A model generated the notes under the pieces. That model was not told where the DNA came from and did no database searches. It saw nothing but the letters and a program-made list of their open reading frames with translations. Positions 4,027-32,402 of a stretch of 64,000 nt of DNA are shown piece after piece; positions within the stretch are counted from its first letter, which is position 1; each line of letters begins with the position of its first letter. This stretch comes from Geobacter sp. SVR (lineage in GTDB: Bacteria > Desulfobacterota > Desulfuromonadia > Geobacterales > Pseudopelobacteraceae), in the NCBI RefSeq assembly GCF_016865365.1, contig NZ_AP024469.1, positions 2,820,501-2,884,500 on the forward strand. The letters run 5' to 3'. A program made the position numbers and the translations under genes.

Positions 4027-4626
4027 ATGTACCCTGAATCCGATGAATTGAACGACTACCTGGCTTCCGATGCCGTCATCGACTGGCAGACCCCCGCTAT
4101 CCGGGAAAAGGCTCTGGAGCTTACCCGCTCCCTCCCGGACGAAATCGCAAAGGCCCGCTGCCTGTACGAATGGGTACGGGATGTTATCACCCACACCCAT
4201 GATGCCGGCCTCGACGTCGTGACCTGCGCAGCCAGCGACGTGCTCCGTCACGGCACCGGGATCTGTTTCGCCAAGAGCCACCTTCTGGCCGCTCTGCTGC
4301 GGGCGGCCGGTATCCCGGCCGGTTTCTGTTACCAGGTATTGCGCAAGGATCCCCCCACTGATAACAGCCCGGTCCTGCACGGGTTCAACGCCATCTACCT
4401 TGCCGAACTCGACCGGTGGATCCGCGTGGATGCGCGGGGCAATACCGGGGGGATCGACGCCCAGTTCAGCCTCGCGAAAGAACGGCTCGCCTTTGCCATG
4501 GACCCTGCGGCGGACGAATTCATCTATGAGGCGATCTTTGCCGCACCGGTAGGCAGCGTGGTCGAGAGGCTGCAGATGTACGACACCCTGAACGAGCTAT
4601 GGTGGGATCTGCCGGAGTGCCTTTGA
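4027..4626 (+). CDS. Transglutaminase-like domain protein
   Basis: Protein of 199 residues with a transglutaminase-like (papain-fold) core. The catalytic triad is visible: Cys80 in HGTGICFAKSHLL, His118 in VLHGFNA and Asp135 in RVDARGN. The ATG at 4027 is preferred because GGAGAG lies 6 nt upstream; an in-frame ATG at 3940 would add 29 residues lacking family similarity and overlap the ArsR control region. There is no signal peptide, so a cytoplasmic peptidase or amidase-like role is likely. Prokaryotic members of this family are mostly uncharacterised and no substrate can be assigned. Confidence 0.85.
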   Translation: MYPESDELNDYLASDAVIDWQTPAIREKALELTRSLPDEIAKARCLYEWVRDVITHTHDAGLDVVTCAASDVLRHGTGICFAKSHLLAALLRAAGIPAGFCYQVLRKDPPTDNSPVLHGFNAIYLAELDRWIRVDARGNTGGIDAQFSLAKERLAFAMDPAADEFIYEAIFAAPVGSVVERLQMYDTLNELWWDLPECL

Positions 4627-4676
4627 GCCCCCCGAATTGCCCTCAAGGAAGTCCGGGCGCCAGGCATGACATTCTG

Positions 4677-5291
4677 TCACTTTACCAGCGACGCCTGAAC
4701 CTCATCGCCAGCCTTCTGTGGAGACCGGAAATACCGCACCGCCATCGGCACCAGCAGCATCGCACCAAGCACGATCAGCATCGTGGTATTCGGGTCGCGG
4801 ATGTATGAATTCAGTTGCAATGTCGAAACCGCGATGACGGCAAAATAGAGCATGTCACCGGTGATGGCAATGGCCCAGCCGGTCAGGAATCCATGCCCGA
4901 CAGCAAGCGCCGAGGCGCGCCCGGTCATGGGATCGACGCCAAAGGCGATCATGATCAGCGCAACGGGACCGGCGCCGGTTCCGCTGAAATGAGACACACT
5001 GCGGGCGGTGGCTGCCCTCATGACCGCATTGATACGGGCCAGAAACGGGACTTTGCTGCAGATACGTGCCATAAGGCGGAGGAGCGGTTCGAAAACGATG
5101 GCCAGAATCACATCCGAAACCAGGTACAGACAGGCCATGACAAGCCAGGACAGGCCGCTGGAATGGGCGAGCATGACGCCGGCCGGGATGCCACCACCTA
5201 CCGGAAGGAGGAACAGCTTCAGCACCGCAATCATTGCCGATGCTGATTGAGGCAAGCCGGAATACGGGCTAAAAATTGAGGAGAGGGCCAT
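4677..5291 (-). CDS. Integral membrane protein of unknown function
   Basis: A 204-residue hydrophobic protein with about four to five predicted transmembrane segments and a Gly-rich loop (FSGTGAGPVALIMIAFGVDP). A basic stretch near RLMARICSKVPFLARINAVMR probably lies in the cytoplasm. GGAG stands 5 nt before the ATG. I do not recognise a characterised family; the GTGAGP stretch suggests a transport function but this is not established. It is convergent with the transglutaminase-like gene, 50 bp away. Confidence 0.6.
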   Translation of the reverse strand: MALSSIFSPYSGLPQSASAMIAVLKLFLLPVGGGIPAGVMLAHSSGLSWLVMACLYLVSDVILAIVFEPLLRLMARICSKVPFLARINAVMRAATARSVSHFSGTGAGPVALIMIAFGVDPMTGRASALAVGHGFLTGWAIAITGDMLYFAVIAVSTLQLNSYIRDPNTTMLIVLGAMLLVPMAVRYFRSPQKAGDEVQASLVK

Positions 5292-5448
5292 GTGGCTCCG
5301 ATTGCGTCAGAGGTAGGTTTTTAACGTCACTCCAAAGCTGTCATGATGTGCTGAAGGTGTCAAGCAGGCTTTACCGTGACTCTCCCCCGATGCATTATCT
5401 CCCCCCACCCTGCATTATATCCGGAACCGGCATGGGAGCGGCCTGCGG

Positions 5449-5781
5449 ATGCATATTCTTCTCAAAACGATAATCAGCATGGCGATCATTTTTTCTGCCA
5501 CGGCAATCGGGAAGAGACTTCTCGCCACCGCCGGCCTCATTGGGGTCATGCCTCTGGCCGGTGCCCTTGTGCTTGTCTGGCTGCGCCTGGAAAGCAAGGG
5601 TGATGCGGCGATCGTGCAGGAGTTCACCAGAAGTGCCTTGTGGGGGATCGTGCTGAGCATTCTTTTTTACCTGGTAGCGTTCGTCTGCTTCAAGAAGCAC
5701 TTGCCGCTACCTGTCGTCCTCGTATCGAGTTTCGGGGCATGGTCTGGGGCGGCGTTCGTTCATCAATGGCTATTGAAATAG
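5449..5781 (+). CDS. Small membrane protein, DUF3147-like
   Basis: A 110-residue protein with four predicted transmembrane helices, beginning MHILLKTIISMAIIFSATAI and containing LIGVMPLAGALVLVWL, which resembles the DUF3147 family of inner-membrane proteins of unknown function. It is followed by a bidirectional terminator shared with the convergent OmpA lipoprotein gene. A GGGAG sits about 11 nt before the start, a slightly long spacing. Confidence 0.6.
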   Translation: MHILLKTIISMAIIFSATAIGKRLLATAGLIGVMPLAGALVLVWLRLESKGDAAIVQEFTRSALWGIVLSILFYLVAFVCFKKHLPLPVVLVSSFGAWSGAAFVHQWLLK

Positions 5782-5816
5782 GAAGTGGCGTCAATCAAAT
5801 AGAGGGGGTAAAACAG

Positions 5817-5850
5817 AACCGGCGCCGCGGAATCATTCCGGGCGCCGGTT
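5817..5850. terminator. Bidirectional intrinsic terminator
   Basis: Strong hairpin with outer arms AACCGGCGCC and GGCGCCGGTT and an inner GGAATCATTCC dyad, lying between two convergent genes that end at 5781 (+) and 5891 (-). Short T/A tracts flank it. Confidence 0.75.
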
Positions 5851-5890
5851 TGCTGCTGCTTCATCCCAGGTTTCATTTCACGGGTTGGCT

Positions 5891-6877
5891 TTATTCACAG
5901 ATGAAATTACCCTGGATCCTTCTGTTCTGCTGCCTCCCGGCAGCGGTCTTGTTGCTGGCGATCGGTTGATCCTCGCCGAACCCTTTGGCGCTGATCCGAT
6001 CCGGATCTATCCCGAATTTATCGACGAGATAGGTACGCACGTTTTCGGCACGTTGCTGTGAAAGCTTCATGTTGTGTGCACGAGTTCCGACATTGTCGGT
6101 ATACCCTTCCACCGTCCCTTTGGCCTTCGGGAACTCTTTAAGGGCTTCGCCCCATTTATCCAGCTCGTCATAATACTGAGGCTTTATATCCGCCTTATCG
6201 AAGTCGAACTGAATGTCAATCACCGAGGGGGAACAGAGTTTTTCGGGCGAAAGCTTCTGCCGGACAACGGGAGCGGCAACCTCGACCTTCGCACTGCTCT
6301 GGGTGGTACCGCCGGCACCGCTGCAGCTCAGCGTATACGTCGTGTTTTCTTCAGGAACGACGGACATCGAGCCCTGCGGCTCCACAACGCCGATGCCGGG
6401 CTGAATGTCACAACGGGAGGCGTTCTGCGATGACCAGACAAGGGTAACCGGTTCCCCCTTGGTGACGGTTGCCCGGGTTACGGTAAAGCTGCTGATAGGT
6501 GGCGGAGGCGGAGGAACAGGTTTGGGCGCCGGAGCGACCACGGGCGGCGGAGTCGGTTTAGGCGGACAGAGCGCATTCGCTTTTGCCGTTGCCTGTTTCG
6601 CCAACGCGACCCCCTCTTCGGTGTGGCATGCCCTGAAGACGTCATAGGCATGATTTTTTGCATCTTCCGCTGCCTTGAATTCAGCCGGGCAGGCATCCGC
6701 CTTGCCTGACCGGCGTGCATTTTCGACAGCTCGATCCGCTTCCTGCATTTCAGAACGGATGTAGTAGCCGGGGATATCGCCGCGTCCCGTATTGACCTCG
6801 TAATGGGCGCAGCCGGATATGCCGCCAAATACCACTGTCAGCCAAAGAATAGGCACGAGCCGTGATAGTGGTTTCAT
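5891..6877 (-). CDS. OmpA-family outer-membrane lipoprotein
   Basis: Lipoprotein of 328 residues. The ATG at 6877 is chosen because AAGGAGA precedes it and it gives a clean signal peptide ending in the lipobox GISGC. After the lipidated Cys come a helical segment with regularly spaced Ala/Cys, a proline-rich linker (about 115-140), an Ig-like domain (about 140-215, starting SSFTVTRATVTKGEPV) and a C-terminal OmpA/MotB peptidoglycan-binding domain (IQFDFDKADI, then GYTDNVGTRAHNMKLSQQRA and NRRIQGNF). It probably tethers the outer membrane to peptidoglycan; the Ig-like insert is less common. An in-frame upstream ATG at 6991 would add a non-signal extension. Confidence 0.9.
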   Translation of the reverse strand: MKPLSRLVPILWLTVVFGGISGCAHYEVNTGRGDIPGYYIRSEMQEADRAVENARRSGKADACPAEFKAAEDAKNHAYDVFRACHTEEGVALAKQATAKANALCPPKPTPPPVVAPAPKPVPPPPPPISSFTVTRATVTKGEPVTLVWSSQNASRCDIQPGIGVVEPQGSMSVVPEENTTYTLSCSGAGGTTQSSAKVEVAAPVVRQKLSPEKLCSPSVIDIQFDFDKADIKPQYYDELDKWGEALKEFPKAKGTVEGYTDNVGTRAHNMKLSQQRAENVRTYLVDKFGIDPDRISAKGFGEDQPIASNKTAAGRQQNRRIQGNFICE

Positions 6878-7387
6878 AACACTCTCCTTCTGTCTTTTAA
6901 TACCATCTGACACCTTAAAGCGTATCCAAACGGCAGTCAATGTCAAGTAACAGTGTTTCAACCATTTGGATGGTATATAACTTCTTGTCACCGGATTGCA
7001 AATAGTACTGTGTTCGGATAAATGCCGATACTCTTACCGGTAACTGTTCCTAGTTGGTATTCAGACACTACGCCACATGGTGTATCGGGAATTGCCATGT
7101 TTCGTTTGATTCTGCCCGGCATGCGGTCAGCCGCATTCTTCAGCAGCACCTTTGGAGGGGGCACTGGTTTTGGACCGCCAGCGCGAGGTTCGGGTACATG
7201 TTCCTGTTTCTGGTCTCCTATACCCTCTTCGCCAAAGGATGGCAGCATACAAGACAGCACTATACCGGCACTTAATCCCTTGACTACCGGACGGAAGTTA
7301 CACTAACCTCCTGAGAGGCTGCGGTCCGTGCTGCAGCTGCCGGCTGTGCCGGTTCAAAACTACATCCACTACAGAAGGAGCAGATCA
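6878..7387. other. Intergenic region without a convincing gene
   Basis: About 510 bp between the divergent OmpA lipoprotein gene and the gene at 7388. Open frames of 60-95 codons exist on both strands (7022-7306 + and 6988-7260 -), but they overlap each other, lack ribosome sites and have no recognisable content. The minus frame has a PEPRAGGPKPVPPPK stretch that faintly resembles the Pro-rich linker of the neighbouring lipoprotein and could be a decayed remnant. The promoters of both flanking genes must lie here. Confidence 0.5.
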
Positions 7388-7744
7388 ATGAACGTTTCGA
7401 TTACTTACAGAGCACATATCGAAGACGGCGTGCTGGACGAGCTTGCCGGCCAACTGCCGGTAATCATCGCAAAGGTTCTGGAGGTGCCCGGGGGGAACCT
7501 GGCACGGCTCAAGCCGGACCAGATTTCCCTCTCCTTTTCCCAGGCCAGCCCCCGCGATACCGGAGCGGACATTCGAATCATAGCGTTCGCCAAGAGCAAT
7601 TTCGCCCGCAAATCGACGGAAAACGACCTGGCACATCAAATACTGGAAAAGGTCACCGATGTGACCGGCACGAGCGCCCAAAAGTGCTCGGTCAACATCC
7701 GTCTGTACCTCATGGAGATCGGAACGGCAGAACAATCGGCCTGA
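7388..7744 (+). CDS. Conserved hypothetical protein, possibly tautomerase-like fold
   Basis: A soluble 118-residue protein starting at the ATG 7 nt after AAGGAG (7375-7380); an upstream in-frame start at 7328 has no ribosome site. The order of strands and helices (MNVSITYRAHIED, then a helix, KPDQISLSFSQASPRDTGADIRIIAFAKS, then a helix and INIRLYLMEI-like end) is reminiscent of small tautomerase or MIF-like folds, but it lacks the N-terminal Pro1 that is catalytic in that superfamily. Function unknown. It is followed by the yjdM-like gene 84 bp downstream. Confidence 0.6.
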   Translation: MNVSITYRAHIEDGVLDELAGQLPVIIAKVLEVPGGNLARLKPDQISLSFSQASPRDTGADIRIIAFAKSNFARKSTENDLAHQILEKVTDVTGTSAQKCSVNIRLYLMEIGTAEQSA

Positions 7745-11859: not shown

Positions 11860-11876
11860 TGGCACTCAGATTGCTA
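11860..11876 (+). promoter_or_regulatory. Sigma-54 promoter of the chemoreceptor gene
   Basis: TGGCACTCAGATTGCTA matches the sigma-54 consensus TGGCAC-N5-TTGC exactly, with GG (11861-11862) and GC (11873-11874) separated by 10 bp. The start site would be near 11886, about 50 bp before the chemoreceptor ATG. The rest of the 11572-11935 gap holds only the hairpin at 11597. Confidence 0.75.
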
Positions 11877-29039: not shown

Positions 29040-29056
29040 AGGCACCCTTATTGCTG
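29040..29056 (+). promoter_or_regulatory. Sigma-54 promoter of the oxidase-cohesin operon
   Basis: AGGCACCCTTATTGCTG: GG at 29041-29042 and GC at 29053-29054 separated by exactly 10 bp, with the TTGC block perfect and one mismatch in TGGCAC. The start would be near 29066. A hairpin with arms AGGCATCA (29113-29120) and TGATGCCT (29137-29144) lies in the leader. Confidence 0.65.
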
Positions 29057-29201: not shown

Positions 29202-31655
29202 ATGCATGACGGAACGGGATTCAAACGAAGGGCTGTCGCCCTGGGAGCGGGGCTGGTCCTGTTGACCCAGGGGCACATGACTGTTGTATCGGCCGCGCCG
29301 GTGCCGGGAGGCACGCTTGATCCGACCACCATCCCCAAATTTGCGACCCCCCTGGTCATACCGCCGGTAATGCCGAAAAGTACCGTCCAACCCGGCAATC
29401 CTGCAGCGGACTACAACATTGCCGTGCGCCAGTTCAGGCAGCAGATCCTGCCATCCGGTTTCCCGTCCACCACGGTCTGGAGCTACGGCCGAGCCCAAGA
29501 TGTCCTGCCGGCGAATTTCGTGGCTCCGGCCCCGCTTTCCAGCGGCATTTCCTTCAACTACCCCGCCTTTACGGTGGAGAATACCTCCGGCAGCCAGACA
29601 AAAGTACGCTGGATCAATGACCTGAAAGATGCCAGCGGTAATTTCCTGCCCCACCTCCTGACCGTCGATCAGACCCTGCACTGGGCCAATCCGCCTGCCA
29701 CCGGCTGCGCCGACGGCGGCAACCACACCGACTGCATGACCATGAATCCGGCTCCCTATACCGGTCCGGTTCCGCTCGTGACGCATGTCCACGGCTCCCA
29801 TGTCAACCCCCAGAGCGACGGATATCCGGAGGCATGGTGGCTGCCGGCGGCGAACAACATTCCGGCCGGCTATGCCAAACGGGGGTCCAAGTTCGACCAG
29901 TTCGACAACACCAACACGGTTCCGGGATCGGCGTATTACGGGTACGAGAACAACCAGCCTGCCGCAACGCTCTGGTACCACGACCATGCCCTGGGCATGA
30001 CCCGCAACAATGTCTATGCCGGACCAGCCGGATTCTGGCTGATCCGCGGAGGAATCAACGGCGACGGCCATGTCAGGGACAACCAGGGCAACATGGCCTA
30101 TCTACCCGGCCCTGCTCCCAAGACAGCGGGGGGGGATCCCAACTTTACCCCCTCGGTGCGCGCCAAGATCCGCGAGATCCCCCTCGCGATCCAGGACAGA
30201 TCCTTCAATGCCGATGGTTCCCTGTTCTACCCCGGCAACCGCGCCTTCTTCGAAGAGCTGAACGTTCCGGCGCAGCCCGAGCAGTTCCCCGGGGCCGGGG
30301 TACTGGACATTCCTTTTGTACCCGGCTCCGACATCGCCCCTATCTGGAATCCGGAGGCCTTTTTCAATACCATGGTGGTCAATGGCAACACCTGGCCGCA
30401 GCTGGAAGTGGCACCCGCCCTGTATCGCCTGCGCCTGCTGGACGGCTGCAACTCCCGTACACTCAACCTGGCCCTGTTTCAGGTTCTGAATCCCGGTACA
30501 GCCAACGAGACCCTCGGAGCGGAGCTACCCTTCTTCCAGATCGGGGCCGAGCAGGGCTTCCTGCCCAAGGTGGCCATGATACAGACCGGTTTTGCCGCCC
30601 AGCTGCCGGGCAACGGGACCCTGCCGACGGTTACCCCTGATCCCGCCAATCCGAGGGCGCTGTTGATGGGGCCGGCCGAACGGGCCGACGTGATCGTCGA
30701 CTTCCGCAATCTTCCCACTGGTACCGTAGTCCGCATGATCAATACCGCGCCGGATGCCCCCTTCGGCGGTTTCCCGGATGATCCCTCCGATCCCGGCACC
30801 ACCGGTCAGGTGATGCAGTTTGTGGTCAACAGCACCCTCACGCAGGCAACGGACGCCACTGCCACGCCTCCGCAAAACCTGGTCCTGCCGGCGGAAGGCC
30901 AGCTCGGGGCCACTACCAATACCCGCCAATTGACCCTCAACGAACTGGAATCGAATCAGGTATGCGTGCAGGAGGTCAATGGCTCGCTGGTGGCCATTCC
31001 GAATGTGCCTTTCACTCCCGATGATCCGTCGGTTTTCCTCAATGCCTGCGCCACTGCCGGCGGATTCCCGATGGGGCCCAAGGCAGCCCTGCTGGGTGTC
31101 CTGACGCAGGATGCCGGCAACAATCCGATCAGCATACCAAAGCTGTGGGCAGAACCGGTCACCGAAGCCCCGCTGCTGAATGCCGTCGAGGAATGGCAGA
31201 TTTTCAACACCACCGTGGATGCCCATCCGATCCACCTGCACTTGGTGCGCTTCCTGGTCCTCGATCGCCAGGATTTCGACCCGGTCACCTTTGCCCCGCT
31301 CGGATCGCCGACCCCGGTCAATCCCAACGAGGAAGGCTACAAGGACACGGTGGTGGCAATGCCGGGGCAGATCACCCGCATCAAGGCCAAATTCGACATC
31401 CCCGGCGAGTATGTATGGCACTGCCATATCGTCGAACATGAGGACAACGAGATGATGAGACCATACATCGTTCGCTTCGACCCGAACTTCCCCGACTTCA
31501 ACCAGGACGGCAAGGTCGACAATGCGGATTACGCCATCCTCCTGGCGGAGATCCGCAAGACAACGCTCCGCAATCCGGCCTTTGATCTCAATCGGGACGG
31601 CAAGGTCGACCTGCTCGACGCCCGCTTTTTCTACACCATAATGCAGGGTATCTAA
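29202..31655 (+). CDS. Secreted multicopper oxidase with C-terminal dockerin (OmpB-like)
   Basis: An 817-residue exported oxidase. Signal peptide (about 1-32, ends VVSAAP). All four copper motifs are present: THVHG (His195, His197), WYHDHALG (His260, His262), HPIHLH, and HCHIVEHEDNEMM with the type-1 Cys and Met. It oxidises metals or organics outside the cell; Geobacter OmpB is a related multicopper protein tied to insoluble-metal reduction. The last 53 residues (765-817) hold two repeats with dockerin-type calcium loops, DFNQDGKVDNAD and DLNRDGKVDLLD, 30 residues apart, matching a type-I dockerin. The next gene encodes a cohesin-like protein. AAGGAG lies 9 nt before the ATG. Confidence 0.93.
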   Translation: MHDGTGFKRRAVALGAGLVLLTQGHMTVVSAAPVPGGTLDPTTIPKFATPLVIPPVMPKSTVQPGNPAADYNIAVRQFRQQILPSGFPSTTVWSYGRAQDVLPANFVAPAPLSSGISFNYPAFTVENTSGSQTKVRWINDLKDASGNFLPHLLTVDQTLHWANPPATGCADGGNHTDCMTMNPAPYTGPVPLVTHVHGSHVNPQSDGYPEAWWLPAANNIPAGYAKRGSKFDQFDNTNTVPGSAYYGYENNQPAATLWYHDHALGMTRNNVYAGPAGFWLIRGGINGDGHVRDNQGNMAYLPGPAPKTAGGDPNFTPSVRAKIREIPLAIQDRSFNADGSLFYPGNRAFFEELNVPAQPEQFPGAGVLDIPFVPGSDIAPIWNPEAFFNTMVVNGNTWPQLEVAPALYRLRLLDGCNSRTLNLALFQVLNPGTANETLGAELPFFQIGAEQGFLPKVAMIQTGFAAQLPGNGTLPTVTPDPANPRALLMGPAERADVIVDFRNLPTGTVVRMINTAPDAPFGGFPDDPSDPGTTGQVMQFVVNSTLTQATDATATPPQNLVLPAEGQLGATTNTRQLTLNELESNQVCVQEVNGSLVAIPNVPFTPDDPSVFLNACATAGGFPMGPKAALLGVLTQDAGNNPISIPKLWAEPVTEAPLLNAVEEWQIFNTTVDAHPIHLHLVRFLVLDRQDFDPVTFAPLGSPTPVNPNEEGYKDTVVAMPGQITRIKAKFDIPGEYVWHCHIVEHEDNEMMRPYIVRFDPNFPDFNQDGKVDNADYAILLAEIRKTTLRNPAFDLNRDGKVDLLDARFFYTIMQGI

Positions 31656-31717
31656 GCGATGCATACGGCGGCCATCCGCAGCGATGACCGCCTCACCATT
31701 CATTCAAGGAGACCGTC

Positions 31718-32290
31718 ATGAAGCGATTCATCCCGATGTTCATCCTGTTCTGCCTGTTCGCGCTGACCGGCCATGCCCTGGCCTACAGTGTCACGCTCTC
31801 CCCCAACTTCCAGTCGATCCAGACCGGCGGCAGTTCCCGGGTGGATGTAAACCTTTCCGTCACCCCCGGCGAACAGCTGTTCGGTTTCAACCTGGCCCTC
31901 ACCTTCGACCCTGCCATCCTGCGCTTCGACAGCCTGCTGTTCAGCACCCCGATCACAAACGACTACCTGGCCGGCTTCACCCCCCCATCGGCCGGCAGCA
32001 CCAACATCGTGACCTTCGACGCCGGACTGGCCTCCCTGAACGGGGTTACCAGCGATACTACGTTGGCCTCGCTGTACTTCACCGGCATCGGCGTCGGCAC
32101 CAGCCAACTCGATCTCTCCGGCACCGTTCTCGACCTGGACCCTGCCACAGACCTGGTACCGGTCAGTGCTACCGGCAGCATCCAGTCAACCTCTGCTCCG
32201 GCCCCGGTTCCTGAGCCTGCCACCTGCCTGCTGCTCGGCTCGGCTCTGGCAGGCATGGTCGGACTGAGGAAAAAACTCCAGAAAGCATAA
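31718..32290 (+). CDS. Cohesin-domain protein with PEP-CTERM anchor
   Basis: A 190-residue exported protein: signal peptide (about 1-22), one cohesin-like beta-sandwich (about 24-155; VDVNLSVTPGEQLFGFNLAL, FDPAILRFDSLLF, LASLYFTGIGVGTSQLDLSG) and a C-terminal PEP-CTERM sorting signal (VPEPA at 164-168, hydrophobic helix, RKKLQKA tail). PEP-CTERM proteins are processed by exosortase for surface or exopolysaccharide attachment. It lies 62 bp after the dockerin-bearing oxidase with GGAG before its ATG, so it probably presents that enzyme on the cell surface. No exosortase is in this window. Confidence 0.88.
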   Translation: MKRFIPMFILFCLFALTGHALAYSVTLSPNFQSIQTGGSSRVDVNLSVTPGEQLFGFNLALTFDPAILRFDSLLFSTPITNDYLAGFTPPSAGSTNIVTFDAGLASLNGVTSDTTLASLYFTGIGVGTSQLDLSGTVLDLDPATDLVPVSATGSIQSTSAPAPVPEPATCLLLGSALAGMVGLRKKLQKA

Positions 32291-32294
32291 GCTC

Positions 32295-32334
32295 CCCCCA
32301 ACGGCCCGTCTCCGGTGAGACGGGCCGTTGGGGG
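32295..32334 (+). terminator. Strong hairpin after the oxidase-cohesin operon
   Basis: Perfect 18-bp stem with a 4-nt loop CGGT (arms 32295-32312 and 32317-32334; inner part GGCCCGTCTC / GAGACGGGCC). No T-tract follows, but position and strength fit a terminator. Confidence 0.7.
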
Positions 32335-32386: not shown

Positions 32387-32402
32387 TGGCACCCCCGTTG
32401 CT
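32387..32402 (+). promoter_or_regulatory. Candidate sigma-54 promoter upstream of polX
   Basis: TGGCACCCCCGTTGCT matches TGGCAC-N5-TTGC at all ten conserved positions (GG 32388-32389, GC 32400-32401). The leader to polX would be about 180 nt and contains a hairpin CCCTCTGC (32523-32530) / GCAGAGGG (32541-32548). No other gene lies between. Confidence 0.5.

Follow-up and report, generated by a model that had tools for sequence, protein, structure and literature searches.

Cohesin-dockerin gene pairs bearing an exosortase sorting signal: a probable surface-display unit in Geobacter sp. SVR and other bacteria

How might a secreted redox enzyme be retained at the surface of a Gram-negative cell when it has no anchor of its own? 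The question is raised by two adjoining genes of Geobacter sp. SVR, one encoding a multicopper oxidase that ends in a dockerin and the other a small protein that combines a single cohesin-like domain with a PEP-CTERM sorting signal. Both lie in the 64,000-nucleotide stretch analysed here (contig NZ_AP024469.1, positions 2,820,501 to 2,884,500; hereafter the window), which belongs to a genome consisting of one contig of 4.7 Mb. We consider it likely, with a probability of roughly 0.75, that the locus is a plug-and-socket display unit, in which an exosortase-sorted single-cohesin protein acts as surface receptor for dockerin-tagged, often redox, cargo. The features that bear on this reading are as follows, in window coordinates:

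29202-31655, + strand: multicopper oxidase gene with a C-terminal dockerin (817 residues; open reading frame and Pfam)
31494-31652, + strand: type I dockerin, oxidase residues 765-817 (Pfam Dockerin_1 above cut-off at 765-807)
31494-31529, + strand: first calcium loop, DFNQDGKVDNAD, oxidase residues 765-776 (from the translation)
31584-31619, + strand: second calcium loop, DLNRDGKVDLLD, oxidase residues 795-806 (from the translation)
31718-32290, + strand: gene of the single-cohesin PEP-CTERM protein (190 residues; open reading frame and Pfam)
31784-32197, + strand: cohesin-fold domain, residues 23-160 (family profile against the PDB, AlphaFold2 model and fold matches)
32204-32275, + strand: PEP-CTERM sorting signal, residues 163-186 (Pfam PF07589 above cut-off)

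The oxidase scores above the Pfam cut-off for both Cu-oxidase_2 (7.7e-23) and Cu-oxidase_3 (2.9e-4), CotA laccases are among the solved structures nearest to it by sequence, and the four copper motifs HVHG, WYHDH, HPIHLH and HCHIVEHEDNEM are found in the window protein as well as in seven dockerin-tailed relatives. An earlier note on this DNA had read the C terminus as a dockerin on account of two calcium loops 30 residues apart, and this was borne out: the starts of DFNQDGKVDNAD and DLNRDGKVDLLD are separated by 30 residues, which is the canonical dockerin spacing, and Pfam places Dockerin_1 (PF00404) over residues 765-807 (1.6e-6; 28.6 bits against a cut-off of 22.9). The top solved match of a profile of 17 dockerins was likewise a dockerin (2y3n_B, 9.2e-15). 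AlphaFold2 modelled the 63-residue tail with moderate confidence (78.1), and the Foldseek matches of this model were weak (E 0.9 or worse) and mostly to dockerins. Compared with the protein of Pelotalea chapellei, identity amounts to 87% over the dockerin and 77% over the oxidase part, and compared with that of a Nitrospirae bin (L088) to 74% and 59%; five further relatives show the opposite order, with lower identity over the dockerin (38-66%) than over the oxidase part (65-72%).

The second open reading frame follows on the same (+) strand after 62 bp. Its product ends in the typical PEP-CTERM layout of a PEP motif, a hydrophobic stretch and a basic end, and scores above cut-off with both Pfam (6e-5, 23.4 bits versus 20.7, residues 163-186) and TIGR02595 (19.9 versus 16). 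The earlier note had seen in this gene a single cohesin-like domain (residues 24-160) joined to a PEP-CTERM signal, a description that we can uphold, with the qualification that profile searches, which recognized the dockerin directly, did not place the cohesin above the Pfam cut-off from the single sequence and recovered it only through a family profile and the predicted fold. Used as a single query in phmmer, the protein matched nothing in the PDB. When a 12-member family profile (A3) was searched against the same database, cohesins came out on top (5lxv, 8.5e-4; 3l8q, 9.3e-4; 1g1k, 0.0088), with unrelated prostaglandin synthases starting only at 0.19. An AlphaFold2 model based on five sequences reached a predicted local distance difference test score of 87.1 and a predicted template modelling score of 0.81; its first-ranked Foldseek match was a cohesin (4.4e-9), and VIA-align also listed cohesins first (Z 15.6, root-mean-square deviation 2.2-2.3 Å over 129-131 aligned residues). 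In the latter search the titles down to rank 38 were cohesin modules, cellulosomal complexes and clostridial glycoside-hydrolase modules, the first unrelated entry being at rank 39 (Z 12.1). Judged by family profile and predicted fold, the domain is a member of the cohesin superfamily.

The genome also contains a candidate sorting enzyme for such a tail, as the earlier note would have expected: a single exosortase match (3.2e-67), which is XrtA-like in scoring 201.8 bits with the XrtA model (6 under the cut-off) and above the cut-off for 8TM_EpsH, alongside five PEP-CTERM matches above cut-off. The locus has no multi-cohesin scaffold protein, there being one cohesin domain in 190 residues, and no glycoside hydrolase cargo, the cargo being a multicopper oxidase. 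The protein carries one cohesin and is therefore better called an anchor or receptor than the surface scaffold that the earlier note had in mind. In the mechanism that we propose, the oxidase and the cohesin protein would both be exported, and the XrtA-like exosortase would recognize the PEP-CTERM tail of the latter and direct it to the surface of the cell or into the exopolysaccharide layer. The single cohesin would then bind the C-terminal dockerin of the oxidase, probably with calcium, and keep the enzyme at the surface. In other bacteria the same kind of unit would carry other cargo.

This display unit is supported by the recurrence of the gene pair well beyond the window. We found a dockerin-type neighbour at 24 of 28 cohesin-family loci, which are spread over 23 genomes and many families. 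At 22 of the 28 the neighbour is a same-strand open reading frame with two dockerin-type calcium loops, the gap between the open frames being 0-218 bp in 20 cases and about 1.03 kb in two; the remaining two are L051, counted through Pfam (2.9e-9) instead of the loop pattern, and L164, a locus kept among the 28 without a PEP-CTERM tail and whose dockerin-like neighbour was read by eye. Beside 23 control PEP-CTERM genes lacking a cohesin, two-loop dockerin frames were found in no instance (0/23; Fisher p 1e-10, with related loci treated as independent). The controls comprised 20 other PEP-CTERM rows of the order search described below and three PEP-CTERM loci of the window genome; at E 1 the cohesin family was matched by none of them, and the flanks of some are shorter than those of the cases. 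The pair was also seen in a Sedimenticola bin of the Gammaproteobacteria (L193) and in the Nitrospirae bin (L088), where it is cut by the contig end.

Cohesin relatives were obtained by searching 141 genomes of the order with the protein's own sequence and 395 genomes of the phylum with the family profile, and were collected before their neighbours served to judge them, except for L086 and L099, which came from the oxidase search. In the order search, those of the 67 match rows that aligned into the cohesin part gave 12 regions outside the window genome, and 9 of these entered the count. We excluded L056 and L057 for want of a family match, and L055 as a weak match (1.6e-5) in a 453-residue frame that is not a PEP-CTERM gene; if all three are counted as misses the figure becomes 24 of 31. 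To the 9 loci we added 16 from the phylum search with an open frame of less than about 250 residues, together with L086, L099 and the window, giving 28; L148 duplicates L099, L067 duplicates L046 and L066 duplicates L048. Of the five cohesin genes that adjoin dockerin-tailed oxidases (see below), those at L066 and L067 are bound to match the search profile by the way it was built, which is not so for L086, L088 and L099. Profiles built without L053 and L054, L051, L052, L049 and L050, or L066 still recovered the members left out.

The association was also approached from the oxidase side. Among the 80 oxidase loci that were taken in (out of 100 relatives), six have a dockerin tail, the same six being returned by a re-scan of whole open reading frames, and five of these six are directly followed by a cohesin-family gene, compared with none of the remaining 74; six of the 74 (L115, L121, L127, L130, L133 and L141) cannot show a dockerin because their C terminus is not visible. 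The pairing is not due to chance. Separately, we noted in a Phycisphaerales genome a 560-residue open reading frame with two dockerin-like loops (L106, 8774-10453) that lies near a dockerin-less oxidase.

Cohesins and dockerins also appear to diverge together. Across 22 pairs, cohesin distances correlated with dockerin distances at r 0.754 (the highest of 9999 permutations being 0.39) and across 16 less redundant pairs at r 0.588, values that are uncorrected for ancestry, so that kinship may account for part of the correlation. The dockerins of unrelated cargo proteins also have a DAR motif after loop 2 in common, in 13 of 17 cases. As the dockerin profile used for genome scans (A7) was built from dockerins picked for their cohesin neighbours, and is biased by that choice, genome-level co-occurrence of dockerins and cohesins was not used as a statistic.

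Outside the oxidases, the dockerin-bearing neighbours of the cohesin genes include large PKD/DUF11, carboxypeptidase-regulatory-like and beta-propeller proteins and an EGF protein, along with unassigned types. Of 18 cargo proteins scanned, 13 matched Dockerin_1 with an E-value no worse than 0.01, and nine of these passed the Pfam cut-off. Redox proteins recur among the cargo. Two loci, L099 and L086, each encode a di-haem peroxidase (CCP_MauG) with an oxidase-like dockerin tail, at 1.4 and 3.2 kb, respectively, from the cohesin gene; the two peroxidases are 80% identical. In the genomes of both loci a further cohesin gene adjoins a protein with four CXXCH haem motifs: the one at L159 scores above the Cytochrome_C7 cut-off and has both calcium loops, and the one at L194 has a cytochrome match under the cut-off and a dockerin detected only by our own profile. 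About 8 kb from its third cohesin gene, genome G434 encodes a 415-residue protein in which copper-oxidase-type domains are combined with a dockerin (7.4e-9) but HXH copper motifs are absent. This genome (L099, L159, L163, L210) was observed to hold three cohesin PEP-CTERM genes, and its dockerin bearers are an oxidase, a di-haem peroxidase, a four-haem-motif protein, an 1800-residue protein and the 415-residue copper-oxidase-fold protein. The interval from the oxidase-cohesin pair of L086 to its dockerin-tailed peroxidase (4538-7434) is occupied by genes for an FKBP-type isomerase and for a cytochrome with five haem motifs. In some genomes a single anchor may serve many dockerin proteins, as in G215, which has 16 dockerin-profile matches (1e-6), several of them in very large open reading frames, versus one cohesin match (1e-4); the corresponding numbers in G177 are 10 and three. 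It is possible, though less likely than not, that these loci belong to a widespread and undescribed Gram-negative display system, in effect an electron-handling counterpart of the cellulosome. Extracellular redox enzymes with a dockerin tag, such as multicopper oxidases, di-haem peroxidases and tetrahaem cytochromes, would then be gathered into common assemblies at the surface by exosortase-sorted single-cohesin receptors.

Apart from shared ancestry, several observations weigh against the display unit, and some of them are what other explanations would build on. The window genome encodes a GspD/PilQ-type secretin (L058, 2257-4842; about 2.117-2.120 Mb) that ends in a cohesin above the Pfam cut-off, and this alternative partner is the main rival to the PEP-CTERM cohesin: the dockerin of the oxidase might dock mainly on the terminal cohesin of the outer-membrane secretin, for secretion or surface attachment, with the PEP-CTERM cohesin having some other role. 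Across the order, 118 of 141 genomes have cohesin matches above cut-off, and among those listed many fall in open reading frames of about 800-1000 residues, the identity of the cohesin-bearing frame as a secretin being established for the window genome alone. Such a partner would also suit the two dockerin-tailed oxidases that have no cohesin gene beside them, in genome G009 (no family match at 1e-4 in the genome) and in Geotalea toluenoxydans (L110), where the frame is broken and there is no family match at 0.01 genome-wide. We nevertheless consider docking on the secretin unlikely, given that at many unrelated loci the dockerin gene is a same-strand neighbour of the gene for the PEP-CTERM cohesin, and that dockerin distances track those of the PEP-CTERM cohesin.

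It could also be that there is no binding between the two domains, with the cohesin-fold protein being an independent surface or matrix protein and the dockerin a calcium-dependent stabilizing or processing tail, with their adjacency arising from a common sorting route or from co-regulation. This would agree with the score of the lone cohesin sequence, which is under the Pfam cut-off (PF00963; E 0.078, 13.6 bits versus 24.1), with three cohesin loci that lack a dockerin neighbour (L053, L054 and L150; none was counted at L160 either, a locus at a contig end), and with a dockerin protein of genome G379 (L200, 5767-7623) that adjoins a PEP-CTERM protein without a match to the cohesin profile, perhaps a receptor of a different fold. 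Against this reading, dockerins adjoin the cohesin-type PEP-CTERM genes but none of the controls (24 of 28 loci versus none of 23), they do so on unrelated cargo, and the two domains diverge together; we regard it as quite improbable. A last alternative, in which a handful of kindred genomes or weak domain calls create a spurious pairing, is largely refuted and, in our estimate, very improbable. Some of the 28 loci are indeed close kin (e.g. L049/L050 and L153/L155), but the set spans 23 genomes of many families plus the gammaproteobacterial (L193) and Nitrospirae (L088) bins, the left-out members that were tried were still recovered by profile, and the fold match reached Z 15.6.

The DNA flanking the two genes contains two further elements:

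29040-29055, + strand: sigma-54-like site with one mismatch, unsupported as a promoter
32295-32334, no strand assigned: perfect 18-bp hairpin 3' of the second gene, at which the transcription unit may end (-44.8 kcal/mol, z -6.5)

No T-run follows the hairpin. The sigma-54 promoter that the earlier note had assigned to the oxidase did not hold up: sites matching the pattern within two mismatches are no commoner in the window than chance would give (26 versus 34.5 expected), and inspection by eye revealed none upstream of the P. chapellei gene; the promoter is not supported. Perfect matches to the pattern, better than the site before the oxidase, were seen at window positions 11860-11875 and 32387-32402. 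Elsewhere in the window genome, three loci (L059, L060 and L065) encode large proteins whose C-terminal likeness to dockerins is weak and mostly limited to a single loop. The lipoproteins adjoining such giants (at L059 and L065, and at L051 of another genome) were considered as a second class of cohesins and are rejected for now, with no Pfam cohesin match at 0.1 and an hhalign probability to the cohesin family of 0.1%.

To our knowledge, the surface roles of individual PEP-CTERM proteins are largely open. The gene pair joins this matter to that of cohesins and dockerins outside cellulosomes, in a compact form that comprises a socket of 138 residues, a plug of 53 and a single sorting enzyme. 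If the display unit is real, it would explain how secreted redox enzymes without an anchor of their own are retained at the surface in relatives of Geobacter and in other bacteria, and it would represent a compact means of enzyme display on Gram-negative cells. The earlier note knew of no described system of this kind, and among the openly licensed papers searched we found none in which PEP-CTERM appears together with cohesin or dockerin. Dockerin and exosortase do co-occur in one of these papers, a review of methanotrophic archaea.

Among known systems, OmpB, OmpC and MofA are described, in the available portions of the papers, as outer-surface multicopper proteins tied to metal redox chemistry (PMC5566968, PMC3495685). 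Compared by description only, OmpB has a fibronectin domain and, in those portions, no mention of a dockerin, whereas the window oxidase is dockerin-tailed. The FKBP-type isomerase and multihaem cytochrome near the L086 oxidase recall the mofABC layout, in which MofB and MofC stand beside MofA (PMC5566968). Single cohesin and dockerin modules outside cellulosomes provide a second likeness, being present in Archaeoglobus, whose cohesin 2xdh matches our cohesin model at Z 14.0, and in anaerobic methanotrophic (ANME) archaea and their syntrophic partners, where their role is stated as open in the passages available (PMC5244752, PMC9012536, PMC10553843). No such pair is described for these modules in the same passages, in contrast to the conserved gene pair reported here, which ties a dockerin to an exosortase-sorted cohesin. 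The cellulosomal type I systems of Clostridium and Acetivibrio share with this locus the cohesin fold and the two-loop dockerin, but are built on multi-cohesin scaffolds and plant-cell-wall enzymes, where here we find a protein with a single cohesin and a PEP-CTERM tail, and a redox enzyme as its cargo. Finally, the locus resembles XrtA/EpsH-type PEP-CTERM sorting in that the tail passes the Pfam cut-off and the genome encodes an XrtA-like exosortase, and would differ from it, if our reading is right, in that the sorted protein is itself the receptor for another protein.

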